A stretch of DNA of 64,000 bases from Streptomyces sp. TN58 (GTDB lineage Bacteria > Actinomycetota > Actinomycetes > Streptomycetales > Streptomycetaceae): positions 7,416,001 through 7,480,000 of the forward strand of contig NZ_CP018870.1 of assembly GCF_001941845.1 (NCBI RefSeq), written 5' to 3'. Position numbers and translations under genes: made by a program. This document shows positions 28,462 to 39,298 of the stretch, one piece after another (the stretch's first letter is position 1; every line of letters begins with the position of its first letter). Under the pieces are notes generated by a model. It was not told where the DNA came from. It searched no databases and worked only from the letters and a program-made list of their open reading frames with translations.

Positions 28462-29445
28462 TCATCCGGGCCGCCCGGCACGGAGGGCGTTGAGGAGCGC
28501 CGCCCCCCGCTCGGCGTCGTCGACGCTCACGGCGAACTCGGCTCCCGTGCGGGGGCGGACGACCAGGCACTCGCCGGCCCGGAGCATCACGGTGGCGCCC
28601 GCGCCACTGAGCCGGTACCCCCAGCCGCCGACCTGGGCGGGAGTGCGCGACTCGGCGCGGGCGGACTCGATGTCCTGCGGCGTCCAGCGCCGCACCGGCC
28701 ACCCGAGCGGCCCGAAGGCCACCTCCAGGCCCTTCTCCGACACGCGGGCCTGCACGGAGCCGAAGGCCCAGGTCACGACCGAGGCGAGCGCGAAGGGGGC
28801 GACGACCGCCCCCTGCATGCCGGTGAGCAGGCCGCAGGCCGCGGCGAGGACGGCCGCCAGCGCCGCGACGCCGGTGACGGCCGCGACCAGGTGCAGCCAG
28901 GGGTTGGCGGCGCGGGAGAGCCAGACGAAGCGCTCCCCGGCCGGGATCACCATGGCCGCGCCCGCGCCCACGCCGGTTCCGGCGGCCGGGGAGGGCCGTT
29001 CGCCGCGCCGCCCGGCGAGCCGGCCCAGTACGCCGGCGGCCAGCGCGACCACGGACGTCAGGACCACCCCCGCACCCACGGAACCCGCCTCCCGCCAGTC
29101 GGCGCGGTCCAGGTTCGCGCGGACTGCCGAGGCCTGGAGGCCCGCCATGAAGACGCCCGTGAACGCCAGCGCCGCACCGGCCCACGACGGGGCCGGCGCG
29201 GCCGCGCGCCGCGTCGTGAGGACGGTGGCGCACGCCGACCCCGCCCATACGAGGGCTGGGAACACGGAAGCCGCCCACAGCGGCATCGACCCGTCGGGCG
29301 CCTCGCCGCCCCAGTGCGTGGCCACCCGCTCCGGCAGCCGCCCGCTCACGGCCAGGGGCAGCGCGGCCAGCAGCGCGAAGACGCCGGCGATCCACACGGC
29401 CGCCCCCCACCCGGCGCCGTCCGGTCGCTTCCCACAGCCGGTCAC
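28462..29445 (-). CDS. DUF1648-type membrane protein
   Basis: A 327-residue membrane protein. The N-terminal block (LPERVATHWGGEAPDGSMPL) is the DUF1648 signature. Several hydrophobic segments follow. The C-terminal 90 residues form a soluble domain (RRWTPQDIESARAE). The function is unknown. The GTG start overlaps the stop of the GntR gene by 4 bp (GTGA), so both are translated together. Confidence 0.8.
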   Translation of the reverse strand: MTGCGKRPDGAGWGAAVWIAGVFALLAALPLAVSGRLPERVATHWGGEAPDGSMPLWAASVFPALVWAGSACATVLTTRRAAAPAPSWAGAALAFTGVFMAGLQASAVRANLDRADWREAGSVGAGVVLTSVVALAAGVLGRLAGRRGERPSPAAGTGVGAGAAMVIPAGERFVWLSRAANPWLHLVAAVTGVAALAAVLAAACGLLTGMQGAVVAPFALASVVTWAFGSVQARVSEKGLEVAFGPLGWPVRRWTPQDIESARAESRTPAQVGGWGYRLSGAGATVMLRAGECLVVRPRTGAEFAVSVDDAERGAALLNALRAGRPG

Positions 29446-29789
29446 GCGAGCCCCCTGATCATCTCGATGAGATCGTTCCTGCCATAGCCCAGCCGTGCCG
29501 CCTCGGCCACCAGCGCGGAGGCCCGCTCCAGCAGCTCGGAGCGCTGTCCCGCGCCCTGGGCCACGGTGACCCCCCGGCCCCGGCGGAACTCCAGCACCCC
29601 CTCGTCCCGCAGGGCCCGCAGCCCGCGCAGCACGGTGTTGGCGTTCACCCCCAGCGCCAGGGACAGCTCCCGGGCCGACGGCAGCCGGTCTCCCGGCGCG
29701 CACTCCCCTTCGGCGACGGCGCGCCGGACGGCTCCCGCCACCTGCTCGTGGAGGGGCCGGCTGTCCGTGGTGTCCAGTCTCAGCAGCAT
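29442..29789 (-). CDS. GntR-family regulator, YtrA type
   Basis: A 115-residue repressor with an N-terminal winged helix (DSRPLHEQVAGAVRRAV, LPSARELSLALGVNANTVLR) and only a short C-terminal helical tail, as in YtrA. YtrA-type regulators usually control the operon they start. Here that operon includes the coupled DUF1648 membrane protein. A TTGCA-N6-TGCAA site lies 50 bp upstream. Confidence 0.88.
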   Translation of the reverse strand: MLLRLDTTDSRPLHEQVAGAVRRAVAEGECAPGDRLPSARELSLALGVNANTVLRGLRALRDEGVLEFRRGRGVTVAQGAGQRSELLERASALVAEAARLGYGRNDLIEMIRGLA

Positions 29790-29838
29790 GATGCCAATGA
29801 AAGTAGCACCAAGTGCTTCATGGAGGCATCCGCTAGAC

Positions 29839-29854
29839 TTGCAGAGTTATGCAA
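29839..29854. promoter_or_regulatory. TTGCA-N6-TGCAA site A
   Basis: TTGCAGAGTTATGCAA followed by TTTGCC. It matches the sites before the two ArsR genes (33659 and 36861). Flanking bases also match those of site C, giving about 26 similar bases. It lies between the GntR gene and the small gene at 29893. Confidence 0.6.
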
Positions 29855-29892
29855 TTTGCCAGTTCTGTATCCAGTGGACGGGGGGTCGGGAC

Positions 29893-30066
29893 GTGTCCGG
29901 GTTCGAGGAAGCGGCACTGGAACGTGTCCGCAGGGCACAGGACCGTCTCCAGGCCGCGCGGGAGGCCCGCGACGCCTTCGAGGAGGCGCAGGCCGCGGAG
30001 GAGCTGGAGGACGCCCTGCGGGTGGCCCGCGACCACGGCGTGGCCGCCGGCGGGGACAGCCGGTGA
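29893..30066 (+). CDS. small coiled-coil protein
   Basis: A 57-residue, highly charged helical protein (ALERVRRAQDRLQAAREARD, then FEEAQAAEELEDALRVAR) that probably forms a coiled coil. GTG 29893 follows a G-rich site. The function is unknown. It is followed by a DUF6126 gene, possibly in the same transcript. Confidence 0.6.
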   Translation: MSGFEEAALERVRRAQDRLQAAREARDAFEEAQAAEELEDALRVARDHGVAAGGDSR

Positions 30067-30183
30067 AGCCGGCGGCACCGAGGCCGGGCAGGTCGCCCGC
30101 CGTCGCCTACGCCGGCGGGCACGGCATACAGGTGCGCGTCCGCCCCTGCGCCCCCACTCATCGACCCGAGACGGAAGAACATC

Positions 30184-30336
30184 ATGACGGATGACACCCG
30201 CGCCGAAGAGTCGGCTCACGAGAAGTGGAAGGAGAAGGGCGTCGCACTGCGCGCCTTCTTCTACATCTTCGGCACCCACGTGTTCGCCGGGTTCATCTGG
30301 CTGCTGTTCTACCTGGGCCGGCACGCCCAGAAGTGA
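30184..30336 (+). CDS. DUF6126 small membrane protein
   Basis: A 50-residue protein with a charged N-terminus (SAHEKWKEKGVALR) and one membrane helix (FFYIFGTHVFAGFIWLLFYL). It matches the DUF6126 family of Streptomyces as I recall it. GGAAGAAC stands before the ATG. The function is unknown; a small inner-membrane regulator is possible. Confidence 0.7.
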   Translation: MTDDTRAEESAHEKWKEKGVALRAFFYIFGTHVFAGFIWLLFYLGRHAQK

Positions 30337-30737
30337 CCACGGCCCGGCCCGCCGGCGCGGGGCAGCGGTCCCGCCCCCGGAGCGGCGCCGGTGACACCCT
30401 GTCAGCCAAGGCGGTGACCTGCGGCGAACCGGTCCCGCGCCCCATCCTCACGCCGGGGGGCGGCAGTTGTCCATCCGTGTCGGCACCGAACCCCTGGCCA
30501 CCTGGATCGGCAGGCGCCGCACCCCGCCGGAGCCGGCCGCCCTGGCCGCCGTACCGGCCCGGCCGGGAAGCCGCGAGGACCTCCCGACGCAGGCGCAGGG
30601 CCCGGCCGGCCGCGCCCGAGCCACGACGCCCGGGGCGGCGGCCGGCCGGAGAACCGTGCCCGCCGCCCGCCGCCCGCCGCCCCGCCCGCCGGCCGGCCGT
30701 CGCCCGGCCGCCGCCCCCGGCGTCGGCCGCCTGTACC
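30337..30737. other. 401-bp gap without a supported gene
   Basis: Intergenic between a plus-strand small gene and the end of the antiporter gene (convergent). Very G+C-rich, with several weak hairpins. I see no gene or defined site. Confidence 0.35.
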
Positions 30738-32258
30738 TCACTCCGGCCCGCCCGCGGCGGGTTCGGACCTGCCGTGTTCGCCGAGCCAGCGGGCGAGCTT
30801 GCCCCGGCGGCCGACCGCGCGCAGCCGCCGCTCGGTGGCCTGCCGGGTGGCCGCGGTGGTGACCAGGAGCAGTTCGTCGCCGGCCGCGAGGACCGTGTCG
30901 GGCCCGGGGACCTGGGTGACGCCGTCACGGACCAGGAGGGTGACCACCGCCGGAGGAGGCAGCCGCAGCTCGAAGACGGCGACGCCGTGCAGGCGCGAGC
31001 CGGGCGGAACGGAGACGGTCAGCAGGTCGGCGTCGAGGACGTCCAGGGGCGCGCTCTCCACCTGGACCTCCCGCACGGCCCCGGGCCGGGTGATGCGCAG
31101 AAGGCGGGCGACGGCGGGCAGGGTGGGGCCCTGGACGAGGGTGAAGACCACCACGAGGACGAAGACGATGTTGAGCAGGTGGCGGGCGCCCTCGACCGCC
31201 GCGACGATCGGGAACGTGGCCAGCACGATCGGCACCGCCCCGCGCAGCCCCGCCCAGGAGATGAAGACCTGCTCCCGCCACGGGGTGCGGAAGGGCAGCA
31301 GGCAGGCGGCGACCGAGACCGGCCGGGCGACCAGCAGCAGGACCAGGCCGACCGCGAGGGCGGGCAGGATCGCCGAGGGCAGCTCGCCGGGGTCGACGAG
31401 CAGCCCGAGCATGACGAACAGGCCGATCTGGGCGAGCCATCCGGTGCCCTCGGCGAAGGAGCGGGTCGCCGCCCGGTGCGGCAGGCGCGAGTTGCCCAGG
31501 ACCAGCCCGGCCAGATAGGCGGCGATGATCCCGCTGGCGTTGACGAGACCGCCGGCGGCGAAGGCGATGATCCCGAACCCGACGGTGGCCAGCGGATACA
31601 GCCCGGTGGCCGGCAGCGCGATGTGCCGCAGCGCGGCCACCCCGGCCCGGCCCACGGCCAGGCCCAGCAGCCCGCCGGCGACCAGCTGGTAGACGACGCT
31701 GCCGAGGATCGCCACAGGGCCGGGCAGCTCGGCGGCGGCGGTGGAGAAGACCAGGACCAGGATGATCGTCGGAGCGTCGTTGAACCCCGACTCCGCCTCC
31801 AGCAGACCGGTGGTCCTGCGCGGAAGCGGCAGGGAGCGCAGAACGGCGAAGACCGCGGCGGCGTCGGTGGAGGAGACGATCGCACCCAGCAGCAGGGCCA
31901 GATGCCAGTCCATGCCGAGCAGGAAGTGGGCCCCCGCACCCGTGACCGCCACCGACACCGCGACACCCGCCGTGGCCAGTACGCCGGCAGGCGCGAGCCG
32001 ACGCCTGACGTCGGGCCAGCGGGTGCTCAGACCGCCCTCGACGAGGATGACCGCGAGGCCCGCGCTGCCCAGGGACTGGGCGAGCTGCGCGTCGTCGAAC
32101 TCGATACCGATCACGTCCTCGCCCGCGATCACACCGACGGCGAGGAAGAGCAGCAGGCTCGGCAGGCCGAGCCGGTGCGCCGCCCGGGCGGCCGCGATGC
32201 TGGCCATGAGGACGACGCCGCCCACCAGCAGCACCAGGTACAGCTGCTGCAGCGTCAC
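30738..32258 (-). CDS. potassium/proton antiporter, CPA1 with RCK-C domain
   Basis: A 506-residue transporter of the CPA1/NhaP2 group. About 12-13 membrane helices are followed by a cytosolic RCK-C (TrkA-C) domain at 400-485 (VPPGSRLHGVAVFELRLP). Ion-site residues are seen in VSSTDAAAVFAVLRSLPLP and LEAESGFNDAPTIILV. It exchanges K+ (or Na+) for H+. The nearest gene is the broken permease upstream, and it probably has its own promoter. Confidence 0.88.
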   Translation of the reverse strand: MTLQQLYLVLLVGGVVLMASIAAARAAHRLGLPSLLLFLAVGVIAGEDVIGIEFDDAQLAQSLGSAGLAVILVEGGLSTRWPDVRRRLAPAGVLATAGVAVSVAVTGAGAHFLLGMDWHLALLLGAIVSSTDAAAVFAVLRSLPLPRRTTGLLEAESGFNDAPTIILVLVFSTAAAELPGPVAILGSVVYQLVAGGLLGLAVGRAGVAALRHIALPATGLYPLATVGFGIIAFAAGGLVNASGIIAAYLAGLVLGNSRLPHRAATRSFAEGTGWLAQIGLFVMLGLLVDPGELPSAILPALAVGLVLLLVARPVSVAACLLPFRTPWREQVFISWAGLRGAVPIVLATFPIVAAVEGARHLLNIVFVLVVVFTLVQGPTLPAVARLLRITRPGAVREVQVESAPLDVLDADLLTVSVPPGSRLHGVAVFELRLPPPAVVTLLVRDGVTQVPGPDTVLAAGDELLLVTTAATRQATERRLRAVGRRGKLARWLGEHGRSEPAAGGPE

Positions 32259-32410
32259 AGCGCGCTCCCCTCTTCCGGGCGCCCGAGCCGGCCTCCGGCC
32301 GCCTCGTGCGGATCATGCCGGGCCCGCGGCGCCCGGCACCGCGCCCCGCCGCGCCGCCTACGGCCGCCGGCGCCCCGCACACCCCCCTCCTCCGCCCGCC
32401 GTCCACGGCC

Positions 32411-33008
32411 TCAGGGCCCGCGCCGGCACAGGGGCCGCCGGCGGCCGGCGTCGAGGAGGTCCACCGCAAGGGCGGCCAGGACCAGGCCGGCCGCGAGCAG
32501 GAGCCCGTGCGGCACCAGCGCCCCGGTGGCCACGGCGGCGACGGCCAGGACCGTCGCCGACCAGGGGCAGGCCATCACCTCGGCGATCAGCAGGACGGTG
32601 GTGACGTTGTCCAGCCACGCCGAGAGGAACGCGGTGACGAGGATCAGCAGCACCATCAGCCGGTACGGGCGGCCGCGCGACCGTTTGGCGGCCCCAGAAC
32701 GCCACGAACTCGAACAGCCCGGTGCGTCTGAGGACGGCGACGGCCAGCATCATGCCCAGGAGCAGGAAGACGACGTTCCAGTCGATCCCCGCGACCTCGG
32801 AGAAGAAGGCGTGCTCGGGACCGGTCGCCCCGATGGGCAGCATGACGACCGCACCGCCCAGGGCCGCGGCGACCCGGTGGACCTTCTCCGTGGCGATCAG
32901 TACGGAGACGGCCGCGAACACCGCCGCCGCCGGCCACGCGGTGACACTCACGGCGGCCCCGCCCAGCCGGTGCCGAGGAGACGCGGGGGCAGGCGGCGGG
33001 GTCGTCAT
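32411..33008 (-). pseudogene. broken SLC13/ArsB-type permease
   Basis: From ATG 33008 the N-terminus reads as an ion-transporter permease (FAAVSVLIATEKVHRVAAAL, then [17 protein letters not shown]). Near 32690 the run TGGGGCC has one G too many; after removing it the frame continues [20 protein letters not shown] and [16 protein letters not shown]. Then most of the protein is missing and the frame ends after about 50 unrelated hydrophobic residues. A single shift could be a sequencing error, but the deletion cannot. Confidence 0.75.
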
Positions 33009-33218
33009 CGGCGCGGCTCCGTTCACAGGTGCTGCCGTGAGCACCCGCACCCCTCAGGGGCCGCCCCCGACCGGAGGGTGCTCCAGTACACCCACCATCG
33101 CCTGCCGCCCCGGCCCGCCGCATCGGGGCCGGCACCCATCTTCAGGCCGCGGCCGCCACCCCGGGGCACCCGAGGGCGGGACCGGAGCCGCGGACCAGGC
33201 CCCCGCCGGACGCCCCCC

Positions 33219-33578
33219 TCAGGTGCGGCCGGCCCGGAGGTCGGCCAGGAGCTCGGCCTGGCCCTCCAGGACACCGGAGAGGATGCTGCGGGCGACCCGC
33301 AGGAGCTCGGCGACCTGCGAATCGGTCAGCGAGTAGTACACGTTCGAGCCCTCCCGGCGGGTGACCACCAGGTTGGCCTTGCGCAGCACGGCCAGCTGCT
33401 GGGAGAGGCTGGCCGCCTCCACCCCGACCTCCGGCAGCATCTCGGCGACCGCGTGCTCGCGTACCGACAGCAGTTCCAGGACGCGGATGCGGACCGGGTG
33501 CCCCAGCGTTTTGAAGAACTCCGACTTCAGCTGGTACAGCGGCGTGCTCGCCTGCGTGGCCCTGCCCTGACTGCCCAT
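33219..33578 (-). CDS. ArsR-family regulator 1
   Basis: A 119-residue winged-helix repressor (LYQLKSEFFKTLGHPVRIRV, VEAASLSQQLAVLRKANLVV). It has no cysteine pair of the arsenic type, so the signal is probably not a thiol-bound metal. It is 210 bp upstream of the broken permease, its likely former target. ATG 33578 is the family start. Its upstream region carries TTGCA site B. It is a paralogue of the regulator at 36419. Confidence 0.87.
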   Translation of the reverse strand: MGSQGRATQASTPLYQLKSEFFKTLGHPVRIRVLELLSVREHAVAEMLPEVGVEAASLSQQLAVLRKANLVVTRREGSNVYYSLTDSQVAELLRVARSILSGVLEGQAELLADLRAGRT

Positions 33579-33658
33579 CTCATCCACCCGGAACCGCTCC
33601 TTCGCGGGGGCGTCCGTCCGCCCCTTCCTCACACCTGCGACCTCTGTGACCTCCACAA

Positions 33659-33674
33659 TTGCAGATCCCTGCAA
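33659..33674. promoter_or_regulatory. TTGCA-N6-TGCAA site B
   Basis: TTGCAGATCCCTGCAA, a 6-bp inverted repeat with 4-bp spacer, about 80 bp upstream of the ATG of ArsR regulator 1. Probably its own operator. Confidence 0.7.
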
Positions 33675-33746
33675 CTCGCGGGCACCCTGGCCGGCACCCG
33701 CCGCGCCGCCCCGGCCGCCCGCGCGGGCCCGCCCGCCGGCCGGGCC

Positions 33747-34178
33747 TCAGACGAGGGCGGGCCCCGCGGGGCCCTGCCGGACGGGCCAGTCGTCGGTGCT
33801 CCAGTGCCTGCCCGCCCCGTCCCCGTCCCCGCCCGCGCCCTGCGCCCCGTGGGCGGCCAGGGCCGCGCCGAGGTCGCAGTGGACCGGTACGGGCGGACAG
33901 GCGGCGTCCGGGACGAGGGAGCCGTCCGCGGGGATCGCCGCGAGTTCGAGGCGGCGCCCGTTGTCGGCGAGGCGCCGGGCGGCCTGGGCGACGGCGATCT
34001 GCCCGCCGGCGGACCAGCCCAGCAGCCCCGTCAGGTCGAGGATGACCGGGCCGGTGCCCCGGGCCAGCGCCCAGCCGATCGCGCCGCTGAACCGGTCGGT
34101 GGCGTCCGCGCCGAGATACCCGGCCAGGGACAGTACGCCCAGCCGTGGTCCGGTGGTGTAGCGCCATTCGATCGTCAT
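33747..34178 (-). CDS. STAS-domain protein
   Basis: A 143-residue protein whose first 100 residues match a STAS domain (LGVLSLAGYLGADATDR, VILDLTGLLGWSAGGQIAVA). The serine that aligns with the phosphorylation site is kept in WSAGG, though the usual DSSG is altered. A disordered Gly/Asp/Ala tail follows. Last gene of a row with ArsR, SulP and flavin-binding proteins, so it may regulate the SulP carrier or a sigma pathway. Confidence 0.75.
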   Translation of the reverse strand: MTIEWRYTTGPRLGVLSLAGYLGADATDRFSGAIGWALARGTGPVILDLTGLLGWSAGGQIAVAQAARRLADNGRRLELAAIPADGSLVPDAACPPVPVHCDLGAALAAHGAQGAGGDGDGAGRHWSTDDWPVRQGPAGPALV

Positions 34179-34199
34179 CGTCGTGTCCTCGGCTTGTCG

Positions 34200-34250
34200 G
34201 TGGTCTCGTGGGCGGTACGCCGTCGGTCTCCTGGGCGGTACGCCGTCCCG
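34200..34250. repeat. direct repeat GGGCGGTACGCCGTC
   Basis: Two copies about 22 bp apart in the gap between the STAS gene and the oxidase gene. Each contains a small palindrome (GGCGTACCGCC-like). Confidence 0.5.
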
Positions 34251-34260
34251 GCCGGCGCGT

Positions 34261-34686
34261 TCACCGGCCCGCCTCGGCCACGGTGCGGGCCAGGCGGAAT
34301 CCGGACACCTGCTGGGGGTGCAGGCGCAGCAGGGTGTCGTGCGGGCCGTGGGCCCAGCCGGGCAGGGTGCGCCGGTAGTGGGCGGCCTCGTCCGGGTCGC
34401 AGATGACGTCCGCCGGGCCGTGGGCGCTGACCGTCCAGCCGGTCCCGGCCGGGCCGCGGATCTCGTCCACCTGGTAGGTCAGCATCGCCCGGCCGGGGAC
34501 GGCCGCGGCCTGCACGGGGGCGCGGACGACCAGGCGCCCGTACTCCATCACGTGGGCGGCGGGCCGGACGACGGCCAGGTCCCGCTGCACGTAGACGAGC
34601 CGGCCCTGGGCGGAGCCTTCGAGGAGCCACAGGGCCTCGGTGCCGGACACCTCGAACATGATGCGGCGGTCGGCGGGGACGGTCAT
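34261..34686 (-). CDS. pyridoxamine 5'-phosphate oxidase-like flavoprotein
   Basis: A 141-residue split-barrel protein of the PNPOx-like group (EALWLLEGSAQGRLVYVQRD, then VVRAPVQAAAVPGRAMLTYQ and DEAAHYRRTLPGW). It may bind FMN, F420 or heme; the sequence does not decide. The ATG overlaps the SulP stop by 4 bp (ATGA), so translation is coupled to the transporter. Confidence 0.82.
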   Translation of the reverse strand: MTVPADRRIMFEVSGTEALWLLEGSAQGRLVYVQRDLAVVRPAAHVMEYGRLVVRAPVQAAAVPGRAMLTYQVDEIRGPAGTGWTVSAHGPADVICDPDEAAHYRRTLPGWAHGPHDTLLRLHPQQVSGFRLARTVAEAGR

Positions 34687-36422
34687 CGTGCGGCCTTCCG
34701 GAAGCGGTGCGGTCGGTGATCGGGCGGGAGCAGGGGGAGCAGGCCCGCCCGCTCCAGGTGTTCGCGGGCGCCGGCGATCGCCTCGGGGGTGGTGGCGTAC
34801 TCGCGGCCCTGCGGGCGCAGCAGCTCCAGGGCGCCGACGGCGTCGAGGGCCTGGCGCTGGCCGGGCCGGATGCCGGAGGCCAGGACGGTGATGCCGCGCC
34901 GGTTCAGCTTCTCCACCGCGTCCTTGAGGACGAGGGCGCCGGTGGCGTCCAGGGTGGTCACCCGCGACATGCGCAGGATGACCACCCTGACGTCGCAGAC
35001 CTCGGAGAGTTCGAGGAGGAAGCGGTGCGCGCCGGCGAAGAAGAGGGGACCGTCGATGCGGTAGGCGACGATGTGCTCGGCCAGCAGGGCGTGTTCCTCG
35101 TCGCTGTGCTCGCCGGGCAGGTCCGGGCGGAGGTCGACCTGCTCCATCCGGGCCTGGCCCGCCACCGCCTTCAGGGCGAGGGCGCCTGCGACGACCAGCC
35201 CGATGATCACCGCGTACACGAGGTCGAGGGCCAGGGTGGCGGCGGCGGTGAGGGCGAGCACGGCGGCGTCGGAGCGGGTCGCCTTCGCCATCGCGCGCAG
35301 GGAGGCGACCTCCACCATGCGCACCGCGGTCGCCAGCAGTACGCCGGCCAGCGCGGCGAGGGGGATCTTCGAGACCAGCGGCGCCGCGGCGAACACGATC
35401 ACCGCGAGGACGGCGGCATGGGTGAGCGCGGCCAGGCGGGAGGAGGCGCCGGTGCGGACGTTGACGGCCGTGCGCGCGATGGCGGCGGTGGCGGGAACGC
35501 CGCCGAACAGGGGAGCGGCCAGGTTGGCGACGCCCTGCCCGAACAGCTCCCTGTCCGGGTCGTGCCGCTGTCCCACCGTCATCCCGTCCGCGACCGTCGC
35601 CGACAGCAGCGACTCCAGCGCGGCGAGTGCCGCGACCGCGACCGCCGGGGCGAGCAGCGAGCCGAGGGCGGAGGCGTCGAGGAAGGCCAGGGAGGGGGCG
35701 GGCAGCCCGGAGGGCAGGTCCCCGATCGGGGCCGCCGCCTCCAGGCGGAAGACCTGTGCGACCACGGTGGCCGCGACCACCGCGACGATGGAGAACGGGA
35801 CCGCCGGCTTCCACCGGGCGCCCGCCAGCATCACCGCCGCGACCCCGGCCGAGAGGCCGACCGCGGTCAGGTTGGGGGACGCCGCGCCCTCCGCGAGCGC
35901 CCGCCACGCCACCGCCACCACGTTCTCGCCCTCGGGCCTGTCGACCCCGAGCGCGGCGGGTATCTGCTGCAGGCCGATGACGCAGGCGATCCCGAGGGTG
36001 AACCCCTCCACCACCGGCGCCGGCACGTAGCGCATGTACCGCCCGGCCCGCAGCAGCGCCAGGCCGATCAGGAGCACGCCGGCCATCAGGCCGACGGTCA
36101 GGACACCGCCGGGCCCGTACCGGGCGACGATCGGCACCAGGACCACGGTCATCGCACCGGTCGGACCGGACACCTGGAGGTTCGACCCGCCCAGCAGCGC
36201 GGCGAGCGCGCCGGCGACCACCGCGGTGGCGAGCCCCGCCTCGGCGCCGAGCCCGGAGGAGACACCGAAGCCGAGCGCGAGGGGGAGCGCGACGATCGCC
36301 ACGGTCAGCCCGGCCAGGAGGTCCCGGCGGGGGCTGCGGCCCATCGCCGCGAAGTCGGCCCGGTCCGGCAGCAGCGAGCGGACCCGCCCGAGCGCGGAAG
36401 CCCAGAAGGCGTGCACGCTCAC
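34683..36422 (-). CDS. SulP-family anion permease with STAS domain
   Basis: A 579-residue transporter with about 12 membrane helices and a C-terminal STAS domain (about 450-550; VVILRMSRVTTLDATGALVL). The SulP motif appears in VAIVALPLALGFGVSSGLG and SNLQVSGPTGAMTVVLVP. It may carry sulfate, bicarbonate or dicarboxylate. The GTG start overlaps the stop of the ArsR gene upstream (GTGA). The pair is probably controlled through site C. Confidence 0.88.
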   Translation of the reverse strand: MSVHAFWASALGRVRSLLPDRADFAAMGRSPRRDLLAGLTVAIVALPLALGFGVSSGLGAEAGLATAVVAGALAALLGGSNLQVSGPTGAMTVVLVPIVARYGPGGVLTVGLMAGVLLIGLALLRAGRYMRYVPAPVVEGFTLGIACVIGLQQIPAALGVDRPEGENVVAVAWRALAEGAASPNLTAVGLSAGVAAVMLAGARWKPAVPFSIVAVVAATVVAQVFRLEAAAPIGDLPSGLPAPSLAFLDASALGSLLAPAVAVAALAALESLLSATVADGMTVGQRHDPDRELFGQGVANLAAPLFGGVPATAAIARTAVNVRTGASSRLAALTHAAVLAVIVFAAAPLVSKIPLAALAGVLLATAVRMVEVASLRAMAKATRSDAAVLALTAAATLALDLVYAVIIGLVVAGALALKAVAGQARMEQVDLRPDLPGEHSDEEHALLAEHIVAYRIDGPLFFAGAHRFLLELSEVCDVRVVILRMSRVTTLDATGALVLKDAVEKLNRRGITVLASGIRPGQRQALDAVGALELLRPQGREYATTPEAIAGAREHLERAGLLPLLPPDHRPHRFRKAAR

Positions 36423-36766
36423 GAGAGCGCGGCCCCGGCCCCGGACTCGCGCAGCTCCTCCAGCAGCTCGCTCTGCCCGGTCAGGACCTCGGTCAGGATC
36501 CGCCGCGCCGCCGCCATCAACTGCGCGACGTCCCCGCCCGCCAGCTCGTAGACGACCGTCGCGCCGTTGCGGGTGGAGGTGACGATCCCCGAACGGCGCA
36601 GGACCGCGAGCTGCTGCGACAGCGCGGACGGCTCGATCTCGATCGCCGCCAGCAGGCTCCGCACCGGCATCGGACCGTCCTGCAGCAGCTCCAGAACCCT
36701 TATCCGCACCGGGTGCCCGAGCATCCTGAAGAACTCGGCCTTGGCCTGGTACAGCGGAACCGGCAC
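36419..36766 (-). CDS. ArsR-family regulator 2
   Basis: A 115-residue paralogue of the regulator at 33219 (LYQAKAEFFRMLGHPVRIRV, IEPSALSQQLAVLRRSGIVT). No cysteine is present, so it must sense something other than a thiol-bound metal. First gene of an operon with SulP and the oxidase-like protein, linked by 4-bp overlaps. A long perfect palindrome (site C) lies about 90 bp upstream. Confidence 0.87.
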   Translation of the reverse strand: MPVPLYQAKAEFFRMLGHPVRIRVLELLQDGPMPVRSLLAAIEIEPSALSQQLAVLRRSGIVTSTRNGATVVYELAGGDVAQLMAAARRILTEVLTGQSELLEELRESGAGAALS

Positions 36767-36857
36767 GGTCTCGCACCCTTCTCACCACCCCGAGCGGGGC
36801 GCACGCCTGGCGCCGTGCCCGCGGCTACCTGCGAACACAGCCAACACAGCATCTATG

Positions 36858-36879
36858 AAATTGCAGAATTCTGCAATTT
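36858..36879. promoter_or_regulatory. TTGCA-N6-TGCAA site C, 22-bp perfect palindrome
   Basis: Centred on TTGCAGAATTCTGCAA and extended by three A/T pairs on each side. A further TTTGCAG follows. It lies between divergent arsR2 and katE and is the strongest of the three sites. Confidence 0.75.
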
Positions 36880-36933: not shown

Positions 36934-36951
36934 CGCTTTGTCGACAAAGCG
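36934..36951. promoter_or_regulatory. 18-bp palindrome before katE
   Basis: CGCTTTGTCGACAAAGCG is perfect and lies 65 bp upstream of the catalase start. It is a possible site for a redox regulator of the catalase gene. Confidence 0.6.

Positions 36952-37015: not shown

Positions 37016-39298
<2,283 letters not shown>

Follow-up and report, generated by a model that had tools for sequence, protein, structure and literature searches.

Three palindromes that share one inverted repeat (sites A, B and C) lie within 7 kb of the chromosome of Streptomyces sp. TN58, two of them upstream of genes for small ArsR-family regulators, which raises the question of which protein would recognise these sites and which genes they would serve. 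The window, i.e., the whole stretch of 64,000 nucleotides that was analysed, corresponds to C1:105035-169034 (reversed) of a 7.585-Mb genome consisting of one contig. Comparison of sequences makes it very likely that two paralogous repressors, ArsR1 and ArsR2, use A, B and C as operators; both are of the same type as Rv0081, a low-oxygen regulator of Mycobacterium tuberculosis. The sites and the two regulator genes are as follows (positions are those of the window):

29836..29857, site A, candidate operator of a gene for a 57-amino-acid protein; 16-mer core at 29839-29854
33656..33677, site B, operator-like palindrome upstream of arsR1; 16-mer core at 33659-33674
36858..36879, site C, perfect 22-bp palindrome AAATTGCAGAATTCTGCAATTT, candidate operator of arsR2-sulP-PNPOx
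33219..33578, minus strand, arsR1, 119 amino acids, no cysteine, Rv0081-type; serine in the recognition helix where 40 of 51 ArsR1 copies have histidine
36419..36766, minus strand, arsR2, 115 amino acids, no cysteine, predicted Rv0081-type ArsR repressor

The exact 16-mer TTGCA-N6-TGCAA occurs at 29839-29854 (TTGCAGAGTTATGCAA), 33659-33674 (TTGCAGATCCCTGCAA) and 36861-36876 (TTGCAGAATTCTGCAA), as a first-pass annotation of the window had pointed out. That annotation had placed the third site at 36858, where the longer palindrome (36858-36879) begins; this was correctly described as perfect over 22 bp, and the 16-mer itself starts at 36861. The agreement of A and C over about 26 bases claimed there is real as a similarity but was put generously, the ungapped identity from 29836 and 36858 being 20 of 26 and 22 of 31 positions. 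With at most one mismatch, four matches to the 16-mer were found in the window versus a mean of 0.27 in dinucleotide shuffles, and none of 100 shuffles reached four. Sites B and C both lie upstream of a start codon, at a distance of about 80 nt from B to the arsR1 ATG (33578) and about 95 nt from C to the arsR2 GTG (36766). In alignments of six close genomes, in which each site was compared with its flanks, the invariant positions amounted to 21 of 22 in A (41 of 169 outside), 19 of 22 in B (101 of 238 outside) and 17 of 22 in C (79 of 238 outside).

Regarding the genome as a whole, the search proposed in the first-pass annotation gave a divided answer. The exact 16-mer was found at seven places (A, B, C, three mirror copies and C1:5845192) versus three for a reversed-pattern control, whereas the one-mismatch form gave 17 places versus 19 for the control, i.e., no excess and no extra sites by this search, so that a loose match to the 16-mer is not diagnostic by itself. 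AATTGC-N8-GCAA occurs in the 7.6-Mb genome only at A, B, C and their mirror copies (control: 0), and the 20-mer AATTGC-N8-GCAATT is present in 71 of the 199 genomes of the genus panel, the backwards control matching in one genome (G043). The mirror copies reflect the apparent position of the window within a terminal inverted repeat, A, B and C recurring exactly mirrored at the other chromosome end. The genes of the window would therefore be present twice. Between C1:168500-175500 and its mirror stretch at the other end, no mismatch was found in 7001 bases, and the repeat probably extends to about 175 kb or beyond, if the stretches compared are joined without a break.

Both ArsR proteins match the Pfam model HTH_5 (30.6 and 43.6 bits, cut-off 22) and exceed the cut-off of the generic ArsR/SmtB model NF033788. 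Neither contains any cysteine, in agreement with the earlier description of two sites preceding ArsR paralogues that lack cysteine pairs. Among ArsR proteins of solved structure, both are closer to Rv0081 (PDB 6jmi) than to the others: it is the best sequence match of both (E 4.6e-31 and 2.4e-27) and the best Foldseek match of an AlphaFold2 model of ArsR2 (mean pLDDT 84; E 3.0e-10, versus 2.6e-7 for the best chain other than Rv0081). In this model the predicted recognition helix comprises residues 46-58, with alanine at residue 48. According to the accessible part of PMC6177252, Rv0081 is a dimer that represses its own gene via an inverted repeat in its promoter and has no defined metal site. 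An inverted repeat in the own promoter is likewise present and conserved here, and binding of a dimer to it is predicted from the sequence. In the class panel, 150 of 394 genomes and 55 of 137 genera, own genus included, contained members of the family; within the genus, a search with ArsR2 (E at most 1e-15) yielded a homologue in at least 102 of 199 genomes, ArsR1- and ArsR3-like copies counted too. ArsR3 is a third paralogue in the same genome:

about C1:504149-504490 (L031 8668-9024), ArsR3, third Rv0081-type paralogue, approximately 80% identical to ArsR2

The first-pass annotation, whose overall interpretation is supported in part, had missed both the kinship with Rv0081 and this third paralogue with its different operator (GAGTTGAAGAAGTCTTCAACTC). 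The ArsR3 gene sits downstream of the gene for a 124-amino-acid protein without a Pfam match.

A palindrome like C was found upstream of ArsR2 in 28 of the best 30 loci of the genus. It starts at a distance of 67-125 nt from the match, and in many cases a TAGATG/TACATG element comes after it. Two of the loci, L020 and L021, were set aside when a site matrix was trained; a larger region of the genome of L020 (L050) does carry TTGC-N8-GCAA, and the genome of L021 (G098) carries a TTGAAGA-type site. For a search with no motif supplied, the best 20-bp palindrome was determined in the 330 nt upstream of each ArsR copy in a set of 162 copies from 120 fetched regions plus the window, among the matches listed (161 after removal of one duplicate). 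Palindromes of at least 27 bits occurred in 72 of 110 ArsR2/3 and 10 of 51 ArsR1 copies, versus none of 483 dinucleotide shuffles. Regarding strict patterns, TTGC-N8-GCAA was present upstream of 72 of 161 copies (10 of 3220 mononucleotide shuffles) and GAAGAnnTCTTC upstream of 48 of 161 (1 of 3220); none of the 110 ArsR2/3 copies had both. Three operator types are found among the 161 copies, namely TTGCTAA, TTGCA and TTGAAGA. ArsR1 copies with a clear palindrome mostly have TTGCTAAT..TTAGCAA, ArsR2 copies have TTGCAAAATTTTGCAA-like sites, and the third ArsR lineage, including the copy in the own genome, has TTGAAGAAnTCTTCAA. In this genome two places match the TTGAAGA type with at most one mismatch: one precedes ArsR3, and the other, C1:6104753, is not interpretable.

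Operator type broadly follows the protein lineage and residue 48, which is third in the predicted recognition helix. Of the 40 ArsR1 copies with histidine at this position, 18 have TTGC-N8-GCAA, and the three bases following TTGC are TAA in 24 of 36 half-sites. The site is present in all six ArsR1 copies with serine, where 11 of the 12 half-sites continue with AGA or AGG, and in all three with alanine (ACA, GCA, AGG or AGA). Among ArsR2/3 copies the TTGC site was found in 25 of 27 with alanine and in 9 of 9 with glycine, mostly with AGA, AAA, GAA or ATA, and GAAGAnnTCTTC was found by the strict pattern in 25 of 33 with asparagine. In the tree the clade of the window, which lacks the histidine (seven members, support 0.95), and L137/L138 lie apart, and histidine seems, from these sequences, to have been lost at least twice in ArsR1.

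Site A precedes neither ArsR gene. The genes considered as its targets on the plus strand are:

29893..30066, plus strand, small57, 57-amino-acid protein, helical in appearance by eye, proposed regulon member
30184..30336, plus strand, DUF6126 gene, downstream of small57

Site A lies about 40 nt upstream of the small57 GTG, and the conserved block around it runs into small57. The protein has no Pfam or NCBIfam match. When the genus was searched with a homologue of the 57-amino-acid protein, 23 close loci were obtained (L166-L188), and an operator of the class was found in 17 of these, starting 46-85 nt upstream of the first aligned codon; among the 17, L183 is the own genome and L176 fits only the looser TTGAA-N6-TTCAA. 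None of seven distant homologues (L189-L195) had such an operator. The operator type of small57 matches the partner ArsR where one is near: it is TTGAAGA or a close variant in the nine site-bearing loci in which an ArsR3-like gene follows, TTGCTAA in L168, where the gene diverges from ArsR1, and TTGCAGA in the lineage of the window. Comparison of the sequences indicates that site A tracks small57, and the small57 operators are the strongest evidence on its role. A match to DUF6126 was found 0.7-0.9 kb from site A in four relatives (L032, L034, L035 and L036), and this gene is a possible further target. The interval 30067-30183 between small57 and the DUF6126 gene looks by eye like the remnant of a 67-amino-acid reading frame seen in L035.

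Site C is followed on the minus strand by a compact gene cluster:

36850..36855, minus strand, TAGATG, putative -10-like element just downstream of C, often conserved with it in alignments
34683..36422, minus strand, sulP, SulP-family anion permease with a STAS domain; start overlaps the arsR2 stop
34261..34686, minus strand, PNPOx gene, pyridoxamine 5'-phosphate oxidase-like protein; overlaps the sulP stop
33747..34178, minus strand, small STAS-like gene; STAS match below cut-off

Since there is a four-base overlap at both junctions between arsR2, sulP and the PNPOx gene, the three genes form one operon behind C, of which the small STAS-like gene is possibly the last member; control of SulP, as put forward in the first-pass annotation, is thereby supported. 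Conservation around C in the six close genomes continues toward arsR2. The leader between C and arsR2 (36800-36857) is well conserved there (TAGATGCTGTG...GGCTGTGTCCGTAGGTAGCC) and may hold a further regulatory element. Neighbouring genes were compared in 40 regions (L031-L070, mostly 18 kb), 39 of which hold an ArsR2-like gene, and sulP adjoins that gene in 30 of the 40. The SulP protein scores below the NCBIfam cut-offs for DauA, SulP and BicA (C4-dicarboxylate, sulfate and bicarbonate transporters), so that sulfate should not be assumed to be its substrate. Extra strong ArsR2-type sites were seen in two relatives (L034 10829-10850 and L036 9719-9740), one of them preceding a gene that resembles aminotransferase genes and again accompanied by TAGATGC, the other upstream of a phnA-looking gene (both names by eye).

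In the proposed mechanism, each repressor would bind its palindrome as a dimer, with one recognition helix per TTGCA half-site, and binding over or next to the promoter would repress its own gene and the genes that follow. Site C would control arsR2-sulP-PNPOx and perhaps the STAS gene, site B arsR1, and site A small57 and perhaps the DUF6126 gene; repression would be lost on a signal that is not read by cysteines. Several observations weigh against the assignment of these operators to Rv0081-type ArsR proteins, or against a simple form of it. The sole other exact 16-mer of the genome, at C1:5845192-5845207 (TTGCAACGGTATGCAA; L266 993), is apparently intergenic and lacks the AATT flank. Six of the 23 close small57 homologues have no site of the class, including L172 and L186 despite an ArsR gene behind them. 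In 22 of the 40 ArsR1 copies with histidine, TTGC-N8-GCAA is missing within 330 nt, perhaps because these copies are inside operons. ArsR2/3 copies with serine divide into 11 with TTGC, 9 with GAAGA and 21 with neither by the strict pattern, and outside the genus three copies with asparagine (L209, L217 and L263) carry TTGC-type palindromes; residue 48 alone does not fix the operator. Only 17 of 58 copies from outside the genus reach the 99% level of a null built from 580 shuffles; asparagine is the helix residue in 16 of the 17 (one by eye), and most of these 16 have TGAAnA...TTCA-like palindromes. The helix residue of the copies from outside the genus was assigned automatically, two rows marked '?' being asparagine by eye, and one 100-base placeholder was left out of a batch of 20 regions.

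By analogy with Rv0081, a respiratory or low-oxygen signal would be the first candidate. Rv0081-Rv0088 is a predicted formate hydrogenlyase locus according to the title of a reference listed in PMC6177252, and in some relatives ArsR1 is similarly followed by a hydrogenase-4-like gene cluster. In L068 this cluster encodes PF01058, PF00361, PF00146, a second PF00361 and a PF00346/NiFeSe-hydrogenase protein (Pfam); the best score of the first PF00361 protein is to 'hydrogenase 4 subunit B', below cut-off. When the proteins of the fetched regions were clustered, the PF01058 family was found in six regions and the large PF00361 family in eight. No such cluster is near ArsR1 in the window, and a search of the own genome with the 20-kDa subunit of the cluster gave only two 39% matches, presumably ordinary complex I. 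A DosR-like box, searched for in the window with a loose pattern, occurred four times versus 5.3 expected, i.e., without excess. The present system differs from Rv0081 in having two to three paralogues with distinct operators and in its linkage to SulP and small57; Rv0081 has asparagine at the helix position. The Rv0081 sites tested in PMC4757040 are, as far as the accessible part of that paper shows, short and not clearly equal to these operators.

Whether the two repressors act on each other's sites is a separate matter. Each ArsR might recognise its own operator alone, without cross-talk and with A belonging to one of them, a reading that deserves serious weight, if somewhat less than even chances. 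On a matrix trained on 28 ArsR2 sites (those of the best 30 loci except L020 and L021), B is the weakest of the three (19.1, versus 42.6 for C and 32.2 for A), and its central bases differ. However, one half of B, TTGCAGA, is the half-site of C, and ArsR1 of the window lineage has serine in the helix, whereas ArsR1 copies with histidine and a site mostly have TTGCTAA. Since ArsR1 of this lineage lacks the usual histidine and is preceded by an ArsR2-like operator, sites are probably shared between the two proteins; the cross-talk suggested in the first-pass annotation is thus plausible. A wider scenario, offered tentatively and as somewhat less than an even bet, is that ArsR1 of the window lineage lost the helix histidine and moved to an ArsR2-type operator, so that two formerly insulated repressors would now share a three-site regulon with the 57-amino-acid protein as a recurrent member, possibly the partner or output of the sensors.

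The first-pass annotation had also placed the genes on the far sides of A and C under the same control:

29442..29789, minus strand, gene for a GntR-family regulator; control by A not supported
37016..39298, plus strand, katE, HPII-type catalase, divergent from arsR2
36934-36951, perfect 18-bp palindrome CGCTTTGTCGACAAAGCG upstream of katE

That A controls the GntR/DUF1648 operon and C controls katE, besides the ArsR genes, is suggested by position: about 50 nt separate A from the GntR start (29789) on the other strand, and about 140 nt separate C from that of katE (37016). The comparisons make this unlikely. The conserved block around A ends on the GntR side, and conservation around C does not continue toward katE. 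GntR gave no match in the four regions from relatives in which site A is present (L032, L034, L035 and L036), and the 40 regions gave one 40% partial match (L046), far from any such site; KatE had no match in any of the 40. The DUF1648 query used in the neighbour and domain comparisons had extra leading residues. The GntR gene as the main target of A was rejected, the conserved block running into small57 instead, and katE as the main target of C was rejected on the same comparisons. The 18-bp palindrome suggests that katE is under separate control. As a conserved element this palindrome was itself rejected: its 16-bp core is found in two of the 199 genomes, the own (two copies, at katE) and G177, where it lies inside a predicted reading frame.

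That ArsR1 and ArsR2 sense metals, arsenite or persulfides in the manner of CmtR, ArsR, BigR or SqrR is very unlikely. A match to NF033788 above cut-off would allow it, and the presence of SulP and a catalase nearby hints at stress by sulfur or oxidants. The proteins share the winged-helix fold of the SmtB/CzrA/CmtR metal sensors, which have palindromic operators near the promoter; with BigR and SqrR they share the fold and a second-tier sequence similarity, in addition to having sulfur-linked neighbour genes. However, the models for BigR (63.7 and 47.5 bits, cut-off 155), CmtR (an equivalog model), TsoR and PagR all score far below cut-off, only cysteine-based sites being considered in this comparison. 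BigR and SqrR have two conserved cysteines, in alpha2 and alpha5, according to the accessible part of PMC10509353, and both are lacking here. The cysteine metal-binding residues of metal-sensing ArsR proteins were likewise absent from ArsR1 and ArsR2, and the sequence, with zero cysteines in either protein, rules out cysteine-based sensing.

A palindrome alone does not name its binder, and a different transcription factor might use these sites, the association with ArsR being incidental; this is highly improbable, since the sites follow ArsR genes across the genus and their sequence shifts with the ArsR clade and recognition helix. Chance as the origin of the three matches, to which the one-mismatch genome count might seem to point, has a negligible probability and was rejected in view of the shuffles, the uniqueness of AATTGC-N8-GCAA in the genome apart from mirror copies, and the cross-genome conservation.

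Regarding the neighbourhood of arsR1, a gene for a CitMHS-type transporter downstream of it (32411-33008) appears broken, consisting of two pieces in different frames, the second of them short.

In the open-access literature, considered at the level of titles and abstract openings among the matches listed, no paper described these operators, or these proteins in Streptomyces. ArsR1 and ArsR2 are further ArsR proteins of the Rv0081 subfamily; the operator types, their association with the helix, the small57 target and the change of ArsR1 specificity are without precedent among those matches. According to the accessible part of PMC10509353, Rv0081 belongs to a sequence cluster of ArsR proteins that is for the most part uncharacterised. 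For this cluster, candidate operators are now at hand, as are their shift in step with the recognition helix and a small gene that recurs as a putative target. The specificities of paralogous repressors may part and later merge again, and the Streptomyces system may offer a non-pathogenic route toward the signal of the Rv0081-type family.

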